This document shows, in pieces, positions 29,637 through 58,202 of a DNA stretch of 64,000 nucleotides. Position numbers and translations under genes: made by a program. Under the pieces are notes generated by a model. The model had not been told where the DNA came from. It did no database searches and was given only the letters and a program-made list of their open reading frames with translations. Numbering within the stretch: the stretch's first letter is position 1; each line of letters opens with the position of its first letter. The stretch lies in assembly GCA_030765645.1 (NCBI GenBank), contig JAVCCE010000021.1, positions 1-64,000 on the forward strand. The letters are read 5' to 3'. Source of the DNA: Candidatus Hinthialibacter antarcticus. GTDB taxonomy: Bacteria > Hinthialibacterota > Hinthialibacteria > Hinthialibacterales > Hinthialibacteraceae.

Positions 29637-30341
29637 ATGCGACGCTTATATTTGTATGCAGCCAAAAAACTGAACAACTTTCTCTGGGGACGCGCAATCG
29701 TTGCCCATTTCTCACGGCATCAATTACTTTATGAGAATGTTGAGGCGCTCTATATCGCGTTGATTCTGGCGTTATTCATCAAGGGATTTTTGTTTGAAGC
29801 CTATAAAATTCCATCGGCTTCCATGCACGACACCCTGCTCGAAGGCGACCGCATCTTCGTCAGCAAAATGATTTATACCTTTTTCGACGTACAAGTCGGC
29901 GACGTGGTGGTATTCAAAACCGAGGGCATTGAACCCATCGACCAACCCGACAAACCCTACTACATCAAGCGGGTGGTCGGGCTGCCGGGCGACATCATTG
30001 AAATTCGCGACGGCTACCTCTTTCGTAACGGCAAACGCTCCGAAACGCCCCCTTTTTTTCTGGAGAACTACTACATCTCGATGGATAATTTCAAGCGGGT
30101 GTTTGAAGTTCCGCCGGGACAGGTATACGTTTTTGGCGATAACAGTTTTAATAGTTACGACAGCCGTGGCTGGGGCGGGGTCCCGTTAGAAAATTTAGTG
30201 GGCAAAGCGTTTTTCCGCTTTTATCCATTTGACCGGGTCGGCGGCATCAACGGCGTACCGCCCATGCGCGCCAGCATTCGCCGCGGGCTGGATTTTGGGC
30301 AGGCGCAATTGAGCGCTCACCAATCCCCGGCCCAATCGTAA
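29637..30341 (+). CDS. lepB: Signal peptidase I, first of two
   Basis: Removes signal peptides from exported proteins at the outer face of the inner membrane. The catalytic Ser62 is in PSASMHDTLLEGDRIFVSK and the general-base Lys111 is in PYYIKRVVGLPGD; a further conserved block is FGDNSFNSYDSRGWG. One transmembrane helix is predicted at about 36-56, after a 35-residue cytoplasmic N-terminus. At 234 residues it is a minimal type I enzyme. It is followed by a close paralogue. Confidence 0.95.
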   Translation: MRRLYLYAAKKLNNFLWGRAIVAHFSRHQLLYENVEALYIALILALFIKGFLFEAYKIPSASMHDTLLEGDRIFVSKMIYTFFDVQVGDVVVFKTEGIEPIDQPDKPYYIKRVVGLPGDIIEIRDGYLFRNGKRSETPPFFLENYYISMDNFKRVFEVPPGQVYVFGDNSFNSYDSRGWGGVPLENLVGKAFFRFYPFDRVGGINGVPPMRASIRRGLDFGQAQLSAHQSPAQS

Positions 30342-30371
30342 TAAAAGAGAGACCAAAGTGAGGACGAAACA

Positions 30372-31064
30372 ATGATGCGTTTTTATCGGTATGTCGCCGA
30401 AAAAATGAAAAACTACTTGTGGGGGCGCCAACTGCTCAACCACATTTCACGCCACGGCTGGTTTTACGCCAACTTTGAAGCGCTCTACACCTCGCTGGTG
30501 ATTGTCTTGCTGGTGACGGCATACATCGTCATCGCTTACAAAATTCCATCCGCCTCCATGCACGACACCTTGCTCGAAGGCGACCGTATTTTCGTCAGCA
30601 AGTTCTTATATCAATTTAAAGACGTTGAAGTCGGCGATATCGTCGTGTTTCGCACCAAAGGCATCGAAGAAATTTATGACCCCGCCAAGCCATACTACAT
30701 CAAGCGGGTGGTGGGGTTGTCGGGCGATGAACTACGCATCCAAAACGGGCTCATTTATCGCAACGGCAAGCTGTTAGATACACCGGAATTTTTCTTGAGA
30801 AATTATTACACGCCCTATCGCTCAAACTCGCGCTTTACCGTCCCGGATGGCGAAATTTTCTGCTTCGGCGACAACAGTTATAACAGCCTCGACAGCCGCG
30901 CCTGGAGCGGCGTACCAATTGAAAACGTCGTCGGCAAGGCGTTCTTCCGCTTCTGGCCGCTTGCGCGGGTCGGGTTATTAAACGGCGTTCCGCCCGAACG
31001 CGCCCGCATCAACCGCGACAACACACCCGCGCCAATCGGTTCCGCTGCACTTCAAAGCAACTGA
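30372..31064 (+). CDS. lepB: Signal peptidase I, second of two
   Basis: A 230-residue paralogue of the preceding gene with the same catalytic positions, Ser62 and Lys111. The first 120 residues of the two align without gaps, including the LWGR and SRH motifs of the cytoplasmic tail, so this is a tandem duplication. The C-terminal halves differ more. Divergence around the substrate groove may mean different signal-peptide preferences. The genes are 30 bases apart with AGAGAG-type purines before the ATG, and coaX follows after nine bases. Confidence 0.94.
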   Translation: MMRFYRYVAEKMKNYLWGRQLLNHISRHGWFYANFEALYTSLVIVLLVTAYIVIAYKIPSASMHDTLLEGDRIFVSKFLYQFKDVEVGDIVVFRTKGIEEIYDPAKPYYIKRVVGLSGDELRIQNGLIYRNGKLLDTPEFFLRNYYTPYRSNSRFTVPDGEIFCFGDNSYNSLDSRAWSGVPIENVVGKAFFRFWPLARVGLLNGVPPERARINRDNTPAPIGSAALQSN

Positions 31065-35208: not shown

Positions 35209-35529
35209 CTATTCGTTTAATTCAAACAAGGCATTTATATTTCTTGCGTCATGGTATATGTGGATCACTTGGAGTTTTCTATTTTTGATTCGATAAAATA
35301 CTAAGAACCGAGGAAACGAATGGATTGGAAAGAATCTTATATCATTCAATTTGGGGTTCTTACTTAGAAAGTGCTTGCCCATTTCGGGCAGTGCTGCGAG
35401 ATTGTCAATCGTATTAAAAACTTCGCGAAAGAATTTTTCTGCTGCGTTTGGCCTTTCAGCGCCAATGTAATTATAAATCTCTACAATGTCTTCAAGCCCT
35501 GAAGGCAAGATATTATAAGCGGTTTTCAT
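35209..35529 (-). CDS. ParE/RelE-family toxin
   Basis: A 106-residue toxin of the ParE branch: YNILPSGLEDIVEIYNYIGAERPNAAEKFFREVFNTIDNLAALPEMGKHF, followed by DIRFFPIHSFPRFLVFYRIKNRKLQVIHIYHDARNI. The VIHIYHDARN end is the usual ParE signature. ParE toxins poison gyrase, but some family members cut RNA. Its ATG overlaps the stop of the antitoxin gene by four bases. A strong terminator follows. Confidence 0.9.
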   Translation of the reverse strand: MKTAYNILPSGLEDIVEIYNYIGAERPNAAEKFFREVFNTIDNLAALPEMGKHFLSKNPKLNDIRFFPIHSFPRFLVFYRIKNRKLQVIHIYHDARNINALFELNE

Positions 35530-40065: not shown

Positions 40066-40139
40066 GGTCCTGGTTTCCCCGGGATAAAATAAGATTACAT
40101 AACTGAATATAGGGTTTTCCCTCTATAATGTCAACTTAT

Positions 40140-40440
40140 TGCCTTCGATACACGGTCAGGATATGCTATTCTGCCAATCGGTATAAGTTGTGAGCTGGCT
40201 GTGACTAAGTTTTGTAACCTGTGTACAGTATCGCATTATTTTCAACATGGCGTGTTTTATCCACATTTCATAAAATCCGTACACAGTCTTATTCGGGGTT
40301 TTCCACAAGAAATTAAATTTTTTAATCTCTTGATTGATTAGACTTAAAAACTTATACACTTTACTAAGAGCCATAGTAGTAATAGTAATAATAAAAGATA
40401 TATAAAGAATTTAATACTCTTTATTATATAGATGAGGCTA
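40140..40440. other. Candidate chromosomal replication origin (oriC)
   Basis: The gap before dnaN contains an exact DnaA box TTATCCACA at 40257-40265, and one-mismatch boxes in the same direction at 40299-40307 (TTTTCCACA) and 40352-40360 (TTATACACT). Thirteen bases later, eight consecutive triplets at 40374-40397 are TAG, TAA or AAG, the DnaA-trio pattern. Then about 45 bases of almost pure A/T lead into dnaN. Genes run away from this gap on both sides and dnaN and parAB are close. dnaA is not adjacent. A 72-codon minus frame here is not protein-like. Confidence 0.7.
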
Positions 40441-40445
40441 AGAAT

Positions 40446-41570
40446 ATGAAATTTACCACATCAAGCGCTACCTGGATGCGTGGAATCAGCGCGGTACAAA
40501 CAGCCGTTGGCAGCGCGATCTCCAATCAGATTCTCGAAAACATTCACGTTTCGTGTGAAGACAATCTGGTTTCTTTTTTAGCGACCAACTTGAGCGTCAC
40601 CATTCGTTGCGACGGCGAGGCGGAAATCGAAGCGCCTGGTTCGACGGTGTTGCCCGCCAAGATTCTGGTCGGCCTGGTGCAGTCGCTGCCCAATGATGAT
40701 GTGGTATTTGAAGAGAAAAACGAAAACGTCTCGATTAAGTGCGCCAAGTTTTCTGCGAAGTTAAAGGGACAAGACGCAGCGTTATATCCTCCCTTCAACC
40801 AGGTGGATGAAGGCGATGAGTTAGGGATGCCGGTCGAAACCCTGAAATCGCTGATTAAGCGCACCATCTTCGCCACCTCGCAAGAGAAGTCGCGCTATGA
40901 ACTCGACGGCGTCAAATTTGAACTCGCTGATGGAAAACTCACTTGCATCGCAACCGATGGACGCCGCATGGCGATGTACAAAGCGTCAAACGAAAAATGG
41001 CCAAAAGGCCCCATCAGCATTCTGGTTCCTTCAAAGACCCTGACCACCATTCAGCAATCCATGCCGGATGAAGGCGAAGTGACGATACGCATCCAGGAAC
41101 GAAAAATACAATTCAGTTGCGGCGATGTTGTGATCGTCTCTAACTTGCTGGTGGATAATTTTCCCCAATATGAACGAATTTTGCCTTCAGAAGGTAAATT
41201 CAAAACGCTGATTAACCGTAGCGAATTGATGTCAGCAGTCAAACGCGCCGCCAATTTAACCAGTCTTGAGACCAGCATGTTGGTGTTTAAGATGGATAAA
41301 GGCCAGATCGAAGTGGTCGGCGAGCGCGAAGAAGTAGGCGGATCAGGACGCGATGTGGTTGATTGCGGCTATGAAGGCGACCCAATGGAAATTCGTTACA
41401 ATCACCGTTATGTCAGCGATGTTTTGCGCGCGTTAGATGAAGAAAAAATCGAATTGGAATTGACCGATTCACGTAAACCCGGTGTGTTTCGCAGCGAGGG
41501 CGTCGATGATTATTTGTATGTTTTGATGCCAATGCGGCCCCCGGAAGACGAAGAGAAAAAAGAAGAATAA
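40446..41570 (+). CDS. dnaN: DNA polymerase III beta subunit (sliding clamp)
   Basis: The ring-shaped processivity clamp of the replicase. 374 residues in three similar domains; visible landmarks are LPAKILVGLVQSLPNDDV, ATSQEKSRYELDGVKFELADGKLTCIATDGRRMAMYKA and the C-terminal YLYVLMPMRPPEDEE, with the MPMR motif in the peptide-binding pocket. GAGG precedes the ATG. Location beside a candidate origin is common for this gene. Confidence 0.97.
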   Translation: MKFTTSSATWMRGISAVQTAVGSAISNQILENIHVSCEDNLVSFLATNLSVTIRCDGEAEIEAPGSTVLPAKILVGLVQSLPNDDVVFEEKNENVSIKCAKFSAKLKGQDAALYPPFNQVDEGDELGMPVETLKSLIKRTIFATSQEKSRYELDGVKFELADGKLTCIATDGRRMAMYKASNEKWPKGPISILVPSKTLTTIQQSMPDEGEVTIRIQERKIQFSCGDVVIVSNLLVDNFPQYERILPSEGKFKTLINRSELMSAVKRAANLTSLETSMLVFKMDKGQIEVVGEREEVGGSGRDVVDCGYEGDPMEIRYNHRYVSDVLRALDEEKIELELTDSRKPGVFRSEGVDDYLYVLMPMRPPEDEEKKEE

Positions 41571-42299: not shown

Positions 42300-45116
42300 C
42301 TAAAACATCCACATCTCGAAAATCGTCAGCCAACTGCCGTCTTGCGGGCGGGAAAATTCGATTCGCACAGCGTCGCATTCAACCGCTTCATTCAAGATCA
42401 AAACGCTCGAGCGCATATCCGGCTTGTAAGATAACGAACCCGCGTCCAGCCATTCGCCTTGACGGTTGCGCACCCGCATGGTGTTCTCATGCAAGTAATC
42501 AAGTTTTTTGGTTCCATGAAATAACAACATGCGCGAAATCGGTTTGAATTCAGCAAGTTCTATTTGAATCCAACCGCCGTCGCTTGGAATCTCGCCGCTC
42601 GACCAATAGGTGCGGCGCCCATATCCACGAACGCTGATATTATTGTCAAACGCCGCATCCAAAAAGACTGGATTATTTGAATCAACCGTCCACGACGGCT
42701 TATTCATCGTTCTGTGAGAGAGTCCTGGAATAAATACTCGATAGCCGTCAAGTAAAAAACCCTGATACCCAAGCCCACTTTCGCCAAACAAAGTTTGCAG
42801 CGACTTCATTGTAAGAGGCGCGTAGCGCTCAACCGCTTCTAACGATGGATTGTTGTAATAAAAATTTTCCTGGAAAACATAACCAACCCGCTGGCTACGT
42901 ATATTTTCATAGGCAAGTGAAGGAAAACGCCTGGATAGGCGGTCGATACTGTTTAACGATCCGTTTGATGCAAAGGTTAAACATTCGCCGATCCAATCGC
43001 GTCCTGCGTTAATCGGTGTCGAGTCAAAACCCGATTCACAAATGAACGATTGAATATCATGTTGTTTTGCGAGATCAATCAATTCGTCAAAATCGGTATT
43101 TAAAACCACGCCGTCAAGCGAAAGACTTGATGGATTGTTTAATCGGGCAGAATCATAATTTGATGCGCTCCACATCGAGAGGAAGAACATCCCGGCGATA
43201 ATGACCAGTAATCCGGGCGAAACGCGCCATACGCATTGAAACAACCAATACATCGAAAACGGCAGCACCCAATACAACGCCAACGCATACCAGGGCCAGA
43301 CGCCAAACGGCGAGTAACTCACCAGCAGAATGGTAAAAAATCCAAATCCAGCCAAAATTTTTCGCAAAAAATGACAAGATAAAAGGCTTATCGAAGCCGT
43401 TGCGCCCAGCGGTAAAATAAACAGCGATGCGAAAAATAATAACGGCGCAAAATAGGGCAGAAATACGCTAGAAGTATCATGCTGCTGATCAAACGGCGTA
43501 CGGGCGCCAAGTAAAACAGGTAGACACTCGCCGAGAAAACGGTCAATCAACGGCGCTTCGTTTTCGACCCGCGCTGTTGGTAAGTCGCGTCCCTGGGCAA
43601 GAAACTGCGCTGCGTCTGAACTTTTACTGGCGGGGAGATACGGCGTCAAAAAGATCAAACATGCGACCGCCGCCAGAACCAACGAGGCGTATGAGTGTGA
43701 AGGTTTCGCAGAGGGCGAGGGTGTGCGAAAAATTCCCATCAAGATCAAAACACCCGACGCGGCGACAAAGGGCGCCGAAATGGGCAGTTCATAGAGCGAG
43801 GCGCCTGCAGCGGTCCCCCATAGAAGCGCGAGGGCGGGGCGTAGGCGTCTCTTTTGCCAGCAATCCAACGCGGCCCACATCATAACCCCGCCGCACGCGA
43901 GCGAAAACGAATAGCCAAACCAGGTTTTCGCCGCGATCCAATAAAAATGCGATCCAGAGAGCAATAAGACGATCAAAGAAAAAACAGCCAGCGGCAATGA
44001 ACCCAGGCGATATGCGCATAGCAAAACAGTTAATATAAACACAATACAGAACACAACAGAAAGCCAATGGATCGAACCCAGGCCGAAAGTTGAAACCAAT
44101 AGCGCCAGCGGATAGGCTTCAAGCGTGCCTTGATAAGATTGCCCATAGTGAAATAGCGGCGGCAGTTCGCCTTGCGCGAGGCGCTGCGCCATGACGCCAA
44201 AGGCGGCCTCATCGGCTTCATACGAGGCCGGGCCAATCAAAAATTGTGGAATATCCAAGTGTTTTATGCAAAAATACCCAGCCAAACAGATTAAAATCAG
44301 AAACCCGATTGGCTTTGCCAGCCGCAGCCGCTGCATATTTTTAAGGACTACATTCAGCCTCGGCAGCCAACCCCACACCGCGAGATAGCAAAAAAGTAGC
44401 GCTAACACCGTGAATAGTGAGCGAAAGCCGACGCTCAGACTCAGCGGGCGCGAGTAAATGGGCGACAACAATACCGGGACGCCGTCCTGTTTTTCAACGG
44501 TGGCCGCATACATGTGTGTGGGCGGGGTCACAGCGCTGCTCTCAAACACCAGTTTGTGCGCACCCGGCGCCAACTCGGTTGGAATATAGACATAGCGGTT
44601 TGAATCGTCATTTTGGATCGACGCGATGCGCTTTCCATTGAGCATCCAACGCGCATCGCCGTGGTTGGCGTAAAAGACCAATCCAGCCGCCGGATTTTTG
44701 TTTTCAAACCAGCCGCTGCAACGAAGCATTTCTGCATTCATCCACAGCGCACCATCTTCAAGTTGCGACGGGCGTAATTGGAAGGACTCGCCAGAAGTTC
44801 CAAAAGTCTTAATGATTTGGCGGTTAGAACCGCTCCATTCGACGCTCAATCCGTTTTGAGGCAAAAACGACAAACATACTCCACAGGTTGCTAACAGGCA
44901 AAAACTGATCGTTTCACGGCGCAGATTGACTTTTATACTGGAGAGATATTCTAACGCAGACAGCGGGCGTCCTTGCTTTTTCGCCCAGTAGATGATTGAA
45001 GCGGCGAGCAAACCGACGGCAAAGCCGAGGCGGACGCGCATCGCCATATCAATGCCCGGCGCAGTGAACAGGGCGGCAAGCGATAAGAAAGAGAGAAAGA
45101 GCAGCAAGTTCGCCAT
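42300..45116 (-). CDS. Polytopic GT-C glycosyltransferase-like membrane protein
   Basis: A 938-residue integral membrane protein, ArnT/PMT-like. Residues 1-60 hold two helices, then a soluble region (about 90-215) with a beta-sandwich look (GDARWMLNGKRIASI). The GT39-like core begins near 290: YEADEAAFGVMAQRLAQGELPPLFHYGQSYQGTLEAYPLALL, with acidic residues at about 298-301 that would be catalytic, followed by about ten helices. The C-terminal region, about 800-938, resembles a discoidin (F5/8 type C) domain: GGWIQIELAEFKPISRMLLFHG, VRIEFSRPQDGSWLTIFE. Such enzymes use polyprenyl-phosphate sugars. It runs against its neighbours in the origin region. Confidence 0.75.
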   Translation of the reverse strand: MANLLLFLSFLSLAALFTAPGIDMAMRVRLGFAVGLLAASIIYWAKKQGRPLSALEYLSSIKVNLRRETISFCLLATCGVCLSFLPQNGLSVEWSGSNRQIIKTFGTSGESFQLRPSQLEDGALWMNAEMLRCSGWFENKNPAAGLVFYANHGDARWMLNGKRIASIQNDDSNRYVYIPTELAPGAHKLVFESSAVTPPTHMYAATVEKQDGVPVLLSPIYSRPLSLSVGFRSLFTVLALLFCYLAVWGWLPRLNVVLKNMQRLRLAKPIGFLILICLAGYFCIKHLDIPQFLIGPASYEADEAAFGVMAQRLAQGELPPLFHYGQSYQGTLEAYPLALLVSTFGLGSIHWLSVVFCIVFILTVLLCAYRLGSLPLAVFSLIVLLLSGSHFYWIAAKTWFGYSFSLACGGVMMWAALDCWQKRRLRPALALLWGTAAGASLYELPISAPFVAASGVLILMGIFRTPSPSAKPSHSYASLVLAAVACLIFLTPYLPASKSSDAAQFLAQGRDLPTARVENEAPLIDRFLGECLPVLLGARTPFDQQHDTSSVFLPYFAPLLFFASLFILPLGATASISLLSCHFLRKILAGFGFFTILLVSYSPFGVWPWYALALYWVLPFSMYWLFQCVWRVSPGLLVIIAGMFFLSMWSASNYDSARLNNPSSLSLDGVVLNTDFDELIDLAKQHDIQSFICESGFDSTPINAGRDWIGECLTFASNGSLNSIDRLSRRFPSLAYENIRSQRVGYVFQENFYYNNPSLEAVERYAPLTMKSLQTLFGESGLGYQGFLLDGYRVFIPGLSHRTMNKPSWTVDSNNPVFLDAAFDNNISVRGYGRRTYWSSGEIPSDGGWIQIELAEFKPISRMLLFHGTKKLDYLHENTMRVRNRQGEWLDAGSLSYKPDMRSSVLILNEAVECDAVRIEFSRPQDGSWLTIFEMWMF

Positions 45117-45235: not shown

Positions 45236-45979
45236 ATGGCAGACAACATTCGCGTTGTCGTAAACGGCGCCAAAGGGCGTATGGGAGCAGAGGCCGTGAA
45301 GGCCGTGAGCGATGCGCCTGATATGACGTTGGTCGGCGCGTTAGATTTGGGCGACAATCTTTCAAAGACGATTGAGACCGAAAAACCAGATATCGTGATT
45401 GATTTCACCGTACCGGACAGCGCCTTTGAAAATGCTTGCATCATTGCCGAATCGACCGCAGGCGGCGTGATTGGAACCACCGGGTTCTCCACAGAGCAAA
45501 TCCATGAATTACGCGACAAAGCAGCGATGAAAAAACCGGGCGTGATTATTGCGCCAAACTTTTCGATCGGCGCCATCCTGATGATGCACTGCGCCCACAT
45601 TGTGGCGCACCACATGCCCCATGTCGAAATCGTTGAGATGCATCATCCCTTTAAGCTGGATGCGCCTTCCGGCACAGCGGTCAAAACAGCGGACATGATG
45701 GCCCATGCGGTCAAAGACACCGATGTTCCACGTGGAACAGAGGAACACCGCTCACGCGGCGAAGTGAATCAGAACATCCCGATTCACAGCATCCGCCTTC
45801 CGGGTTATCTGGCGCACCAGGAAGTCATTTTTGGCGCTGAAGGCCAAACGCTTACTATCCGCCATGATACGTATAACCGCACCTGTTATATGCCGGGGGT
45901 GTTGATGGCGGTGAGAGAAGCGATCAAGCGGGGCGGCGTGACGTACGGCCTCGAAAATATCCTGTTTCCAGGACAATAA
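45236..45979 (+). CDS. dapB: 4-Hydroxy-tetrahydrodipicolinate reductase
   Basis: An NAD(P)H enzyme of lysine and diaminopimelate synthesis, feeding the cell wall. The nucleotide-binding VVNGAKGRMGAEAV is at residues 6-19; GTTGFS and EIVEMHHPFKLDAPSGTAVKTAD are the active-site blocks. 247 residues. GGAGG precedes the ATG. A perfect parS palindrome is embedded at 45724-45739. Its stop overlaps the rsmG start by one base, so it is likely the first gene of a dapB-rsmG unit. Confidence 0.96.
   Translation: MADNIRVVVNGAKGRMGAEAVKAVSDAPDMTLVGALDLGDNLSKTIETEKPDIVIDFTVPDSAFENACIIAESTAGGVIGTTGFSTEQIHELRDKAAMKKPGVIIAPNFSIGAILMMHCAHIVAHHMPHVEIVEMHHPFKLDAPSGTAVKTADMMAHAVKDTDVPRGTEEHRSRGEVNQNIPIHSIRLPGYLAHQEVIFGAEGQTLTIRHDTYNRTCYMPGVLMAVREAIKRGGVTYGLENILFPGQ
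45724..45739. other. parS partition site inside dapB
   Basis: TGTTCCACGTGGAACA is a perfect 16-base palindrome and matches the bacterial consensus TGTTNCACGTGAAACA. It is inside dapB, over codons for a DVPRGTE stretch. A palindrome of this kind in the partition neighbourhood should be the ParB loading site. Confidence 0.88.
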
Positions 45980-46755: not shown

Positions 46756-46771
46756 CGTTCTACGTGGAACA
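46756..46771. other. Degenerate parS site before parA
   Basis: CGTTCTACGTGGAACA matches the perfect site in dapB at 14 of 16 bases. It lies six bases before the TTG start of parA, in the 5' leader. It may be a weaker ParB site that also regulates the parAB pair. Confidence 0.6.
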
Positions 46772-46777
46772 ATAATC

Positions 46778-47596
46778 TTGGCAAAAGTAATCTGCGTCAT
46801 AAACCAGAAGGGCGGGGTTGGCAAAACCACCTCCGCCGTGAACCTCGCAGCCTGTCTGGCGGCAAAAGGGCATGAAACCCTGCTGCTTGATATTGATCCG
46901 CAGGGAAACGCCAGCAGCGGCCTGGGAATCAATCGGGCGGAACTCGAAAAGACCATTTTCGACGTAATGATTGATGAAGCCCCCATGCAGAGCATCCTCA
47001 AGCCCACTAAACAGCCAAAGTTGCGGATCGCACCCGCTAATAGCGATCTGCTGTCGGCGGAACTTCACCTGGCGGGCGACCCGGATGGCAAGCGCTGTCT
47101 CAGCCGGGCGGTGGTCAAATTTTTCAATGAAACGCCGCCTGCGCTTCAACCCAAGTACATTATTGTTGATTGCCCGCCGTCATTGGGGCAACTTTCGATC
47201 AACGCGATCCTCACGTCTGATACGGTGATTATCCCCGTTCAGTGTGAATATTACGCGCTTGAAGGCCTCACCGATATTTTGACCACCACCACCATGTTGC
47301 GCCAAAATTTCAATACCGGCTTGTCGTTAGAGGGAATCCTTCTTACAATGGCAGACCGTCGGCTCAACTTGAGCCATCAGGTTGAAGAAGAAATTCGCAA
47401 CGTGTACCGTGATTTTGTGTTCCAAAGCGTGATTTACCGCAGCGTCCGCCTCAGCGAGGCGCCCAGTCACGGGACGCCGATCATTCAATACGACCCGCAG
47501 TCAATCGGTTCCAAAGCCTATATGGCGTTAGCAGAGGAAGTCATAGAAAATGAAACGAAAAGCCCTCGGCCGTGGCCTCTCCGCGCTTCTGTCTGA
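46778..47596 (+). CDS. parA: Chromosome partition ATPase ParA (Soj)
   Basis: A Walker-type ATPase that moves ParB-parS complexes along the nucleoid. The deviant Walker A KGGVGKTT is at residues 10-17, with LLDIDPQGNASSGLGI and IIVDCPPSLGQLS for Walker A' and B. Start is TTG, agreeing with the family N-terminus. The C-terminus extends about 14 residues past the usual end and overlaps parB by 47 bases in another frame, which is unusual. A parS-like site lies just before it. Confidence 0.95.
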   Translation: MAKVICVINQKGGVGKTTSAVNLAACLAAKGHETLLLDIDPQGNASSGLGINRAELEKTIFDVMIDEAPMQSILKPTKQPKLRIAPANSDLLSAELHLAGDPDGKRCLSRAVVKFFNETPPALQPKYIIVDCPPSLGQLSINAILTSDTVIIPVQCEYYALEGLTDILTTTTMLRQNFNTGLSLEGILLTMADRRLNLSHQVEEEIRNVYRDFVFQSVIYRSVRLSEAPSHGTPIIQYDPQSIGSKAYMALAEEVIENETKSPRPWPLRASV

Positions 47597-48428
47597 TTCA
47601 AGCGTCGAGTCTGTCGCCGAACCGCAATCCAAGCGGATAGACGAAATCGAAGTCGGCGCCATCGAAGCCAACCGCTGGCAGCCGCGCACCCAGTTTGATG
47701 ACGAGCAACTCAAAGAACTGTCCGAATCCATTGGCGCTCAAGGCGTGTTGCAGCCGCTGTTGGTGCGGCGCAAACCCGATGGCTCGGCTGGCTACCAGTT
47801 AATCGCTGGCGAACGCCGCCTGCGCGCATCGAAACTCGCCGGGCTGGGAAAAGTGCCGTGCATTCTCCTCGAAGCCCAAGAAACCCAGGCGCTCGAAATC
47901 GCCCTGGTAGAAAATATTCAACGCAGCAATCTCTCGCCCGTCGAAGAAGCCCGCGCCTATAAACAAATGGTGGAGCGCTTCAATCTGACCCAAGAGCAAA
48001 TTTCCGCCAAGGTCGGCAAAAGCCGCGCTGCGGTGACCAATGCGCTGCGGCTGCTTAACCTGCCGGTATCGGTTTTGGACCTACTGGATAGCGGCGTATT
48101 GTCGGTTGGGCACGCCAAAGTGCTGCTTTCGGTCAAAGACACCGACAAGATCGAGTCGCTCGCGCTCCGCATTCTTGAGGAAGAATGGAGCGTCCGTCAG
48201 CTGGAAGAAGAACTGCGCGGTAAGCCGCCCGCAGCGCCCAAACCCGCAAAAGCCGCCCCCGAAGATAAAGATATATTCGTCTCCGATATGAAACGAAAAC
48301 TCGAAGAAGCCCTGCAAACAAAGGTCGATATCCGCATGAAGGGCAAAAATAAGGGGCGAATTGATATTCATTTTTATGATCTAGATCAATTAGATCATCT
48401 ATTAAAATTGTGGAAGATTTCGCTTTAG
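47550..48428 (+). CDS. parB: Chromosome partition protein ParB (Spo0J)
   Basis: The CTP-dependent DNA clamp that loads at parS. 292 residues: an N-terminal KALGRGLSALL that stimulates ParA, the catalytic region (IEANRWQPRTQFDDEQLKELSESI, LIAGERRLRASKLAGL with its GERR motif, LVENIQRSNLSPVEEARAYKQMV), the helix-turn-helix LTQEQISAKVGKSRAAVTNALRLLNLP, and a C-terminal dimer domain. It starts inside parA. Confidence 0.97.
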   Translation: MKRKALGRGLSALLSDSSVESVAEPQSKRIDEIEVGAIEANRWQPRTQFDDEQLKELSESIGAQGVLQPLLVRRKPDGSAGYQLIAGERRLRASKLAGLGKVPCILLEAQETQALEIALVENIQRSNLSPVEEARAYKQMVERFNLTQEQISAKVGKSRAAVTNALRLLNLPVSVLDLLDSGVLSVGHAKVLLSVKDTDKIESLALRILEEEWSVRQLEEELRGKPPAAPKPAKAAPEDKDIFVSDMKRKLEEALQTKVDIRMKGKNKGRIDIHFYDLDQLDHLLKLWKISL

Positions 48429-56888: not shown

Positions 56889-58091
56889 CTACAACTTCAC
56901 GTTAAAGGTTTGGCCTTGGGTGGGCCTTACCAATGACTTCGTACGGTCGGTACCAAACAAGGCGAGCAATTCATTGGCGACATAAATGCGGTTGCGTTGT
57001 CGCCCGGTCACTTCGTGGAGGATGCCTTCTTTGATTAGATATTCAACGCCGCGTTGAATTGACATATAGGGGATGTCCCATTTTCTTGATAAATTGGAAA
57101 TCGAAATCATCGGGTTTGAAAAAATGTGGTCAATTAAACGCAAGGCCGTTTGAGGAGTTCGTTTTCGCATAAATTTATTTCGATATTTTTCGTGTAGGCT
57201 AATTAAATCTTGTGCGTTTTTTAACGCTTCTTGTGACTGTGCGCACACGCCTCTCAGAAAGAAATCAATCCATCCCGCCCAGTCTCCCTTTTGAGTGACC
57301 GCTAAAAGTCGCTGATAATATTCATCACGATAGCGTTCAAAAAATGCCGATAAATATAACAAGGGTTGCGACAATACATCGCGCTCACATAGTAAAAATG
57401 GAACCAACAAACGCCCGACGCGGCCATTGCCGTCGATAAAGGGGTGTATGGCTTCAAATTGATAGTGCATTAAGGCGCATTGAATCAGCACCGGCTCTTG
57501 TGGATTTGAATGCAAATAGTTCTCCCAATCAGCCAAGCACACCTTCATTTCCTCAACAGGCGGGGGAACATAGGTTGCTTCATCCAGAGTACAACCAGGC
57601 GCACCGATCCAATTTTGGCTACGACGCATTTCCCCCGGCGTCGCATGGTCGCCGCGTACGCCAGACATCAGAATTTTGTGAATCTCACAAACAAGCCGGT
57701 TACTGATTGGCAGCGATTGAAGGCGCGATAAGCCGTAGTCCATCGCCTGTACATAATTTGCGATTTCTTTGACGTCAGGAACACTCGGTGGTTCTGTTTC
57801 GTCGGCTTCAAACAATAATAGTTCATCCATCCCCGATTGGGTATTTTCAATCCTTGAACTTAAGACCGCTTCTCTTCGGACAAATGGGTGGATGAGCAGA
57901 TGGGGGTTGGGTAATAGTTGAGCCGTACCCGATAATTTTCCGATAAACTGGTCAGCATTAGAAAGCAATTTTATTAAATCAATGCTCATTTCAATATTGG
58001 GAGGTAAAGAGCCTGGGAGAAAAGCCCAATAATTTTTATGGGTGTTAATGCAACGTCCAGCACTCGAATCTTTAAATTGCTCTGGATTCAT
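56889..58091 (-). CDS. Fic family protein with inhibitory helix and winged helix
   Basis: A 400-residue Fic protein. The Fic motif HPFIDGNGRVGR is at 216-227, so AMP-transfer or deAMPylation is likely. An N-terminal SSRIEN at 78-83 matches the (S/T)xxxE(G/N) inhibitory helix, with Glu82 blocking the active site (class II). C-terminal residues 300-385 look like a winged helix (LSRKWDIPYMSIQRGVEYLIKEGILHEVTG). That domain, plus two inverted repeats upstream, suggests self-regulation. Target protein unknown. Confidence 0.92.
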   Translation of the reverse strand: MNPEQFKDSSAGRCINTHKNYWAFLPGSLPPNIEMSIDLIKLLSNADQFIGKLSGTAQLLPNPHLLIHPFVRREAVLSSRIENTQSGMDELLLFEADETEPPSVPDVKEIANYVQAMDYGLSRLQSLPISNRLVCEIHKILMSGVRGDHATPGEMRRSQNWIGAPGCTLDEATYVPPPVEEMKVCLADWENYLHSNPQEPVLIQCALMHYQFEAIHPFIDGNGRVGRLLVPFLLCERDVLSQPLLYLSAFFERYRDEYYQRLLAVTQKGDWAGWIDFFLRGVCAQSQEALKNAQDLISLHEKYRNKFMRKRTPQTALRLIDHIFSNPMISISNLSRKWDIPYMSIQRGVEYLIKEGILHEVTGRQRNRIYVANELLALFGTDRTKSLVRPTQGQTFNVKL

Positions 58092-58137
58092 GGGATTCTT
58101 TTCTTACTTGTATTTATACACAATAATAGCAAAAAGT

Positions 58138-58202
58138 GTGAATAAGGCAATTCTTATTCACGGAATCAGTTGTTTTTGTGAATAATAAAGACCGTTATTC
58201 AC
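58138..58202 (-). promoter_or_regulatory. Two tandem operators upstream of fic
   Basis: GTGAATAA-N8-TTATTCAC at 58138-58161 and GTGAATAA-N9-TTATTCAC at 58178-58202. The left arms are exactly 40 bases apart, close to four DNA turns. Both lie 47 to 111 bases before the fic start. Perfect arms in two copies leave little doubt that a dimeric regulator binds here; the winged-helix Fic protein is the natural candidate. Confidence 0.75.

Follow-up and report, generated by a model that had tools for sequence, protein, structure and literature searches.

A probable chromosome origin beside dnaN, away from dnaA, with a trio-like repeat that departs from the canonical DnaA-trio in Candidatus Hinthialibacter antarcticus

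Our analysis indicates that the chromosome origin of Candidatus Hinthialibacter antarcticus very probably lies in the intergenic region at 40066-40445 of the window (the whole stretch of 64,000 nucleotides analysed, from contig C21), beside dnaN and with dnaA elsewhere. We assign oriC to the dnaN region because DnaA boxes precede dnaN across the family, parS sites lie 4-7 kb off, some relatives show a GC-skew switch at dnaN or close to it, and none of the genomes examined has one at dnaA; the original prediction of an origin here is thus well supported. Several hallmarks of an oriC are found together: a DnaA-box cluster, an A+T-rich element beside the boxes, and dnaN and parS/parAB nearby. Judging from the sequence, DnaA would bind and unwind the DNA at this place. 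An origin beside dnaN without dnaA is not a new arrangement; it is known from cyanobacteria, since in Synechococcus elongatus, which belongs to a different phylum, an oriC near dnaN with an unlinked dnaA is established (PMC7198777). The present case would add a lineage to those that keep oriC beside dnaN and carry dnaA at another place. The features of the region and its right flank are as follows.

40066-40445, no strand: proposed oriC, 380-bp intergenic region between the divergent prepilin gene and dnaN, 33% G+C
40257-40265, plus: exact DnaA box TTATCCACA, a sequence with 25 exact copies across the 5.15 Mb genome
40299-40307, plus: DnaA box TTTTCCACA, one mismatch
40352-40360, plus: weak DnaA box TTATACACT, upstream half of an abutting pair, two mismatches to TTATCCACA and one to TTATNCACA
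40361-40369, plus: degenerate second box TTACTAAGA, four mismatches, abutting TTATACACT
40370-40372, plus: GC-rich spacer GCC separating the boxes from the repeat (GGC, GGT or CCC in relatives)
40373-40393, minus: trio-like run, ATA GTA GTA ATA GTA ATA ATA on the box strand, 3'-TAT CAT CAT TAT CAT TAT TAT-5' on the strand that DnaA is expected to grip
40374-40397, plus: the same bases in the register of the original prediction, TAG TAG TAA TAG TAA TAA TAA AAG
40394-40440, no strand: A+T-rich stretch into which the unwinding element presumably continues
40446-41570, plus: dnaN, sliding clamp, 374 aa
45724-45739, no strand: parS site TGTTCCACGTGGAACA, a perfect palindrome, with exact copies close to dnaN in six genera
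46756-46771, no strand: second parS-like site CGTTCTACGTGGAACA, two mismatches, just before parA
46778-47596, plus: parA
47550-48428, plus: parB

All four DnaA boxes (40257, 40299, 40352 and 40361) lie on the plus strand and point to the right. The exact box was described correctly at the outset, and of the two boxes then said to carry one mismatch in the same direction, both agree in direction and TTTTCCACA agrees in sequence, but the count was slightly generous for TTATACACT, which deviates from TTATCCACA at two positions. When the 380-bp gap was shuffled with its dinucleotides preserved (n=5,000), two same-strand boxes with at most one mismatch appeared in 0.36% of the shuffles, and neither the eight-triplet run nor the seven-unit RTA run appeared in any of the 5,000. 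The eight in-register TAG, TAA or AAG triplets reported earlier are indeed present, followed by A/T-rich DNA, with an A+T content of 82% over 40374-40440. A search for (RTA)6 across the 5.15 Mb genome gives a single site, the run upstream of dnaN.

We compared six sequenced genera of the family, namely the window's genome (G000) and its relatives G001-G005, and found DnaA boxes before dnaN in all six. In G000, G002, G003 and G004, an abutting box pair, placed in the relatives at the position equivalent to 40352-40369, is followed by a GC-rich trinucleotide and A+T-rich DNA (weak boxes paired by eye); the relatives' counterparts aligned with TTACTAAGA are GAATCCACA, TTATCAACA and TTATCCACA. G001 has one good box (TAATCCACA) and the same spacer, and G005 a weak box alone before its repeat. 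Purine-first, RTA-type runs were seen in four of the six genomes (G000, G003, G004 and G005), and a clear triplet run was absent upstream of dnaN in G001 and G002, where TTTAAAC...ATATATAG takes its place. In another compared region upstream of dnaN, abutting boxes of the TTACTCACA/AAACTCACA type are followed by purine-rich DNA with no clear RTA repeats.

The run could be merely easily melted A+T-rich DNA in the origin with an incidental TAA/TAG microsatellite, in which DnaA makes no triplet-specific contact. Two family members lacking a run fit this explanation, as does Thermotoga maritima, whose annotated DnaA-trio is supportive and not essential (PMC10316083). We nevertheless consider it rather unlikely: the run occurs at one place only in the genome, its A/G interruptions show that it is not a pure microsatellite, and in four genera it sits close behind the box pair despite 48-69% DnaN identity.

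The run had been labelled a DnaA-trio, a label that fails in its canonical sense. The trios of B. subtilis read 3'-GAT-5' (PMC8287927), and in C. difficile CACCTACTACTATTACTACTATGA comes after the boxes (PMC7561715); in standard origins (C. difficile and our survey hits), the box strand carries CTA CTA CTA, which puts 3'-GAT-5' on the strand gripped by DnaA. Here it is TAG that stands on the box strand, so that the TAG repeat is on the opposite strand from a canonical trio and the gripped strand would carry 3'-(T/C)AT-5'. Read in this way, the triplets keep the essential middle A and lose the preferred first-position G, with T or C first in all seven units where the consensus opposite the boxes is 3'-[G/A]A[T/A]-5'. 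The published search rules for a basal unwinding system (BUS; PMC8287927) ask for a DnaA box with up to two mismatches within 16 bp of at least three 3'-NAN-5' triplets, and TTATACACT is followed by a 12-bp spacer and seven NAN triplets; the abutting TTACTAAGA agrees with the rule for a second degenerate tandem box with up to four mismatches. The unwinding module thus fits the BUS rules and departs from the canonical trio consensus in the first base of its triplets.

To place this first base among other bacteria, we surveyed 386 genomes across bacteria for TTATCCACA with a run of five in-register NTA units no more than 14 bp behind it. Matches were obtained in nine genomes, CTA-rich in six of them, and the same run beside a reversed TTATCCACA in none of the 386. 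A survey with relaxed boxes (155 genomes) gave mostly CTA/TTA runs, many adjoining dnaA; only at the window's site did all five units begin with A or G. In the same survey, G091 showed a similar-looking run, located on a different contig from its dnaA. Among the units of 12 hand-collected standard sites, 51 of 58 begin with C or T on the box strand (G or A on the gripped strand), whereas 25 of 25 units in the four repeat-bearing family origins begin with A or G, a contrast with a Fisher p of about 3e-15 when the units are treated as independent, which they are not. The box strand of the related family f2 is likewise purine-rich.

As a variant of the origin reading, the trios might be flipped, so that DnaA grips the box strand itself and TAG/TAA are canonical in sequence on the opposite strand and with opposite polarity. 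The box-strand TAG/TAA does match the known 3'-[G/A]A[T/A]-5' consensus, and the purine-rich box strand of f2 points the same way. However, reversing the adjacent boxes abolished origin activity in B. subtilis (PMC6669920), where the geometry is thus fixed, and TTATCCACA always faced the run in the strict survey. When we sought DnaA boxes to the right of the run, which would have saved the strand assignment of the original prediction, we found none on this far side in the window. Flipped trios are therefore unlikely.

The reading we prefer, in which DnaA grips the strand opposite the boxes, has a possible counterpart in the DnaA protein. In the B. subtilis structure, the first-base guanine is contacted by Arg202 and Glu228 and the middle adenine by Asn187 (PMC10721633). 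Compared with 8btg, the DnaA of the window's genome keeps Asn187, Ile190, Ile193, Asn196 and Glu228 and has Gln in place of Arg202, so that within the canonical trio contact set (Asn187, Ile190, Ile193, Arg202 and Glu228) Arg202 alone is changed. At position 202 the six family proteins all have Gln, as do f2 and f4; Lys stands there in f3 and f5, and Arg in 41 of 60 DnaA sequences taken from other classes. Where a clear NTA run adjoins dnaA in such outside genomes, residue 202 is mostly Arg, with the exceptions of G031 (Lys, with GTA CTA CTA CTA), G126 (Gln, with CTA TTA TTA TTA) and G094 (Tyr, with ATA ATA TTA ATA ATA). The link between residue and repeat is not strict, as G126 shows. The association is suggestive; it is correlative, comes from one lineage, partly tracks phylogeny and is not proof. 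We tentatively propose, at somewhat less than even chance, that the family's DnaA lost the guanine-reading Arg, now Gln, and the trio lost its guanine, leaving a 3'-YAT-5' code in an otherwise standard module, or even that DnaA changed the strand it grips. In B. subtilis, triplet recognition is understood in structural detail, the Arg on the guanine and the Asn on the adenine accounting for 3'-GA-5'. If the proposal is true, a lineage that has given up the Arg and the guanine and retained the Asn and the adenine would put this code to a natural test, and the relation would help to predict origins in uncultured phyla from the DnaA sequence.

The following course of events can be envisaged. DnaA supplied from the distant dnaA would bind the boxes at 40257 and 40299 and the weak pair at 40352-40369, and from the weak pair it would load across the GCC spacer onto the adjoining repeat. 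There it would stretch one strand, leading to the opening of 40373 to about 40440 beside dnaN, and the segment with ParA/ParB-parS 5-6 kb to the right would then segregate the new origins. The gripped strand is most likely the one opposite the boxes, as in B. subtilis, held through the 3'-(T/C)AT-5' triplets, whose lack of a first-position G would fit Gln at position 202 instead of the guanine-contacting Arg; we infer both this strand choice and the residue-repeat link from sequence comparison.

Such a module resembles the BUS of B. subtilis incC (DnaA-boxes #6/#7 and DnaA-trios), with which it shares tandem boxes, a GC-rich spacer, in-register triplets with a middle A opposite the boxes, A+T-rich DNA after the triplets and an adjacent dnaN. 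It differs in having T or C instead of G (A) as the first base, a weak box pair, a dnaA that is not adjacent and Gln at 202. In oriC2 of Clostridioides difficile (5'-CACCTACTACTATTACTACTATGA-3') boxes are likewise followed by a triplet run before dnaN, although the box-strand triplets are CTA/TTA there and ATA/GTA here. The 'eTrio' in the oriC of Thermotoga maritima also has TAG repeats in the unwinding element, but they are on the upper strand with their 3' side facing the boxes, whereas the TAG repeats of the window occupy the other strand with respect to the boxes.

The surroundings of the region bear on the location of the origin. As claimed earlier, the genes switch direction here: nifS, Bro-N, a ParE-type toxin gene, sahH, metK and the prepilin gene run left, and dnaN, dapB, rsmG, parA, parB, HD and tsaC run right (rsmG, HD and tsaC named by eye). 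The sole leftward gene between dnaN and tsaC (42300-45116, minus) encodes a predicted membrane protein of 938 aa without a Pfam match. The five relatives each have two exact parS sites TGTTCCACGTGGAACA at 4-7 kb from dnaN; in the window's genome, where the two sites are beside parAB, the one at 45724 is exact and the one at 46756 has two mismatches. No exact parS away from dnaN, including near dnaA, was found in the six family genomes.

Because the window's genome is in 78 contigs, a whole-chromosome skew was not available, and GC skew was computed on contig stretches. A clear switch is seen in G003, from -0.036 to +0.049, and the minimum (18070) precedes the start of dnaN (18156) by 86 bp. 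The window contig shows a weak change from -0.013 to +0.014 and a minimum at 35226, 5 kb left of the dnaN region, and the family members G002 and G004 have no switch at dnaN. A moderate switch near dnaN was observed in G006 (-0.017 to +0.075). In G011 the switch is again clear, from -0.244 to +0.054, with a minimum about 9 kb right of dnaN. The cumulative T-A skew of the window contig peaks at 40338, mostly tracking gene direction here.

The dnaA gene, correctly said to be absent beside dnaN, is on another contig (C15:126586-127956). It is at least 126 kb from a C15 end, and dnaN is 29 kb from the nearer C21 end, so the two genes are separated by at least about 155 kb. An origin upstream of dnaA (C15, about 128.2 kb), with the dnaN region being merely a DnaA-regulated dnaN promoter, would agree with the motif AAGRTNAAAAAATCAnnYTGTTNNTAAnnTGTGGAT, which all six family members have, in this or a closely similar form, some 250-400 bp ahead of dnaA, and with the exact DnaA boxes upstream of dnaA in G000, G001, G002, G003 and G004, but is quite improbable and was rejected on skew and parS: the skew sign is constant across dnaA in G000 (268 kb), G003, G004, G011 and G012, no clear switch was seen there in G002 (near zero on both sides) or the short G006 stretch, exact parS in the family is always near dnaN, and a dnaA autoregulatory promoter could explain the boxes.

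Apart from the origin beside dnaN, several minor observations were made. The conserved non-coding module of ~45 bp about 300 bp before dnaA (C15, about 128.2 kb), kept in six genera, resembles a tandem DnaA-box element and is perhaps a dnaA autoregulatory site or a remnant of an ancestral bipartite origin. In G005, dnaA and dnaN share a contig (C35) and are 18 kb apart, intermediate between linked and fully separated genes. In G006 and in G008, two dnaN-like matches occur, with identities of about 48-49% and 36% to dnaN of the window. Three DnaA-box-like TTATNCACA sites lie in inverted repeats at 58114-58185 of the window, before a leftward Fic-like gene (56889-58091); we rejected this cluster as a second origin, and the inverted TTATTCAC repeats are better read as an operator. 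Finally, a tandem pair of signal-peptidase-I-like genes with similar sequences, recognized by eye, occupies 29637-31064 on the plus strand of the window.
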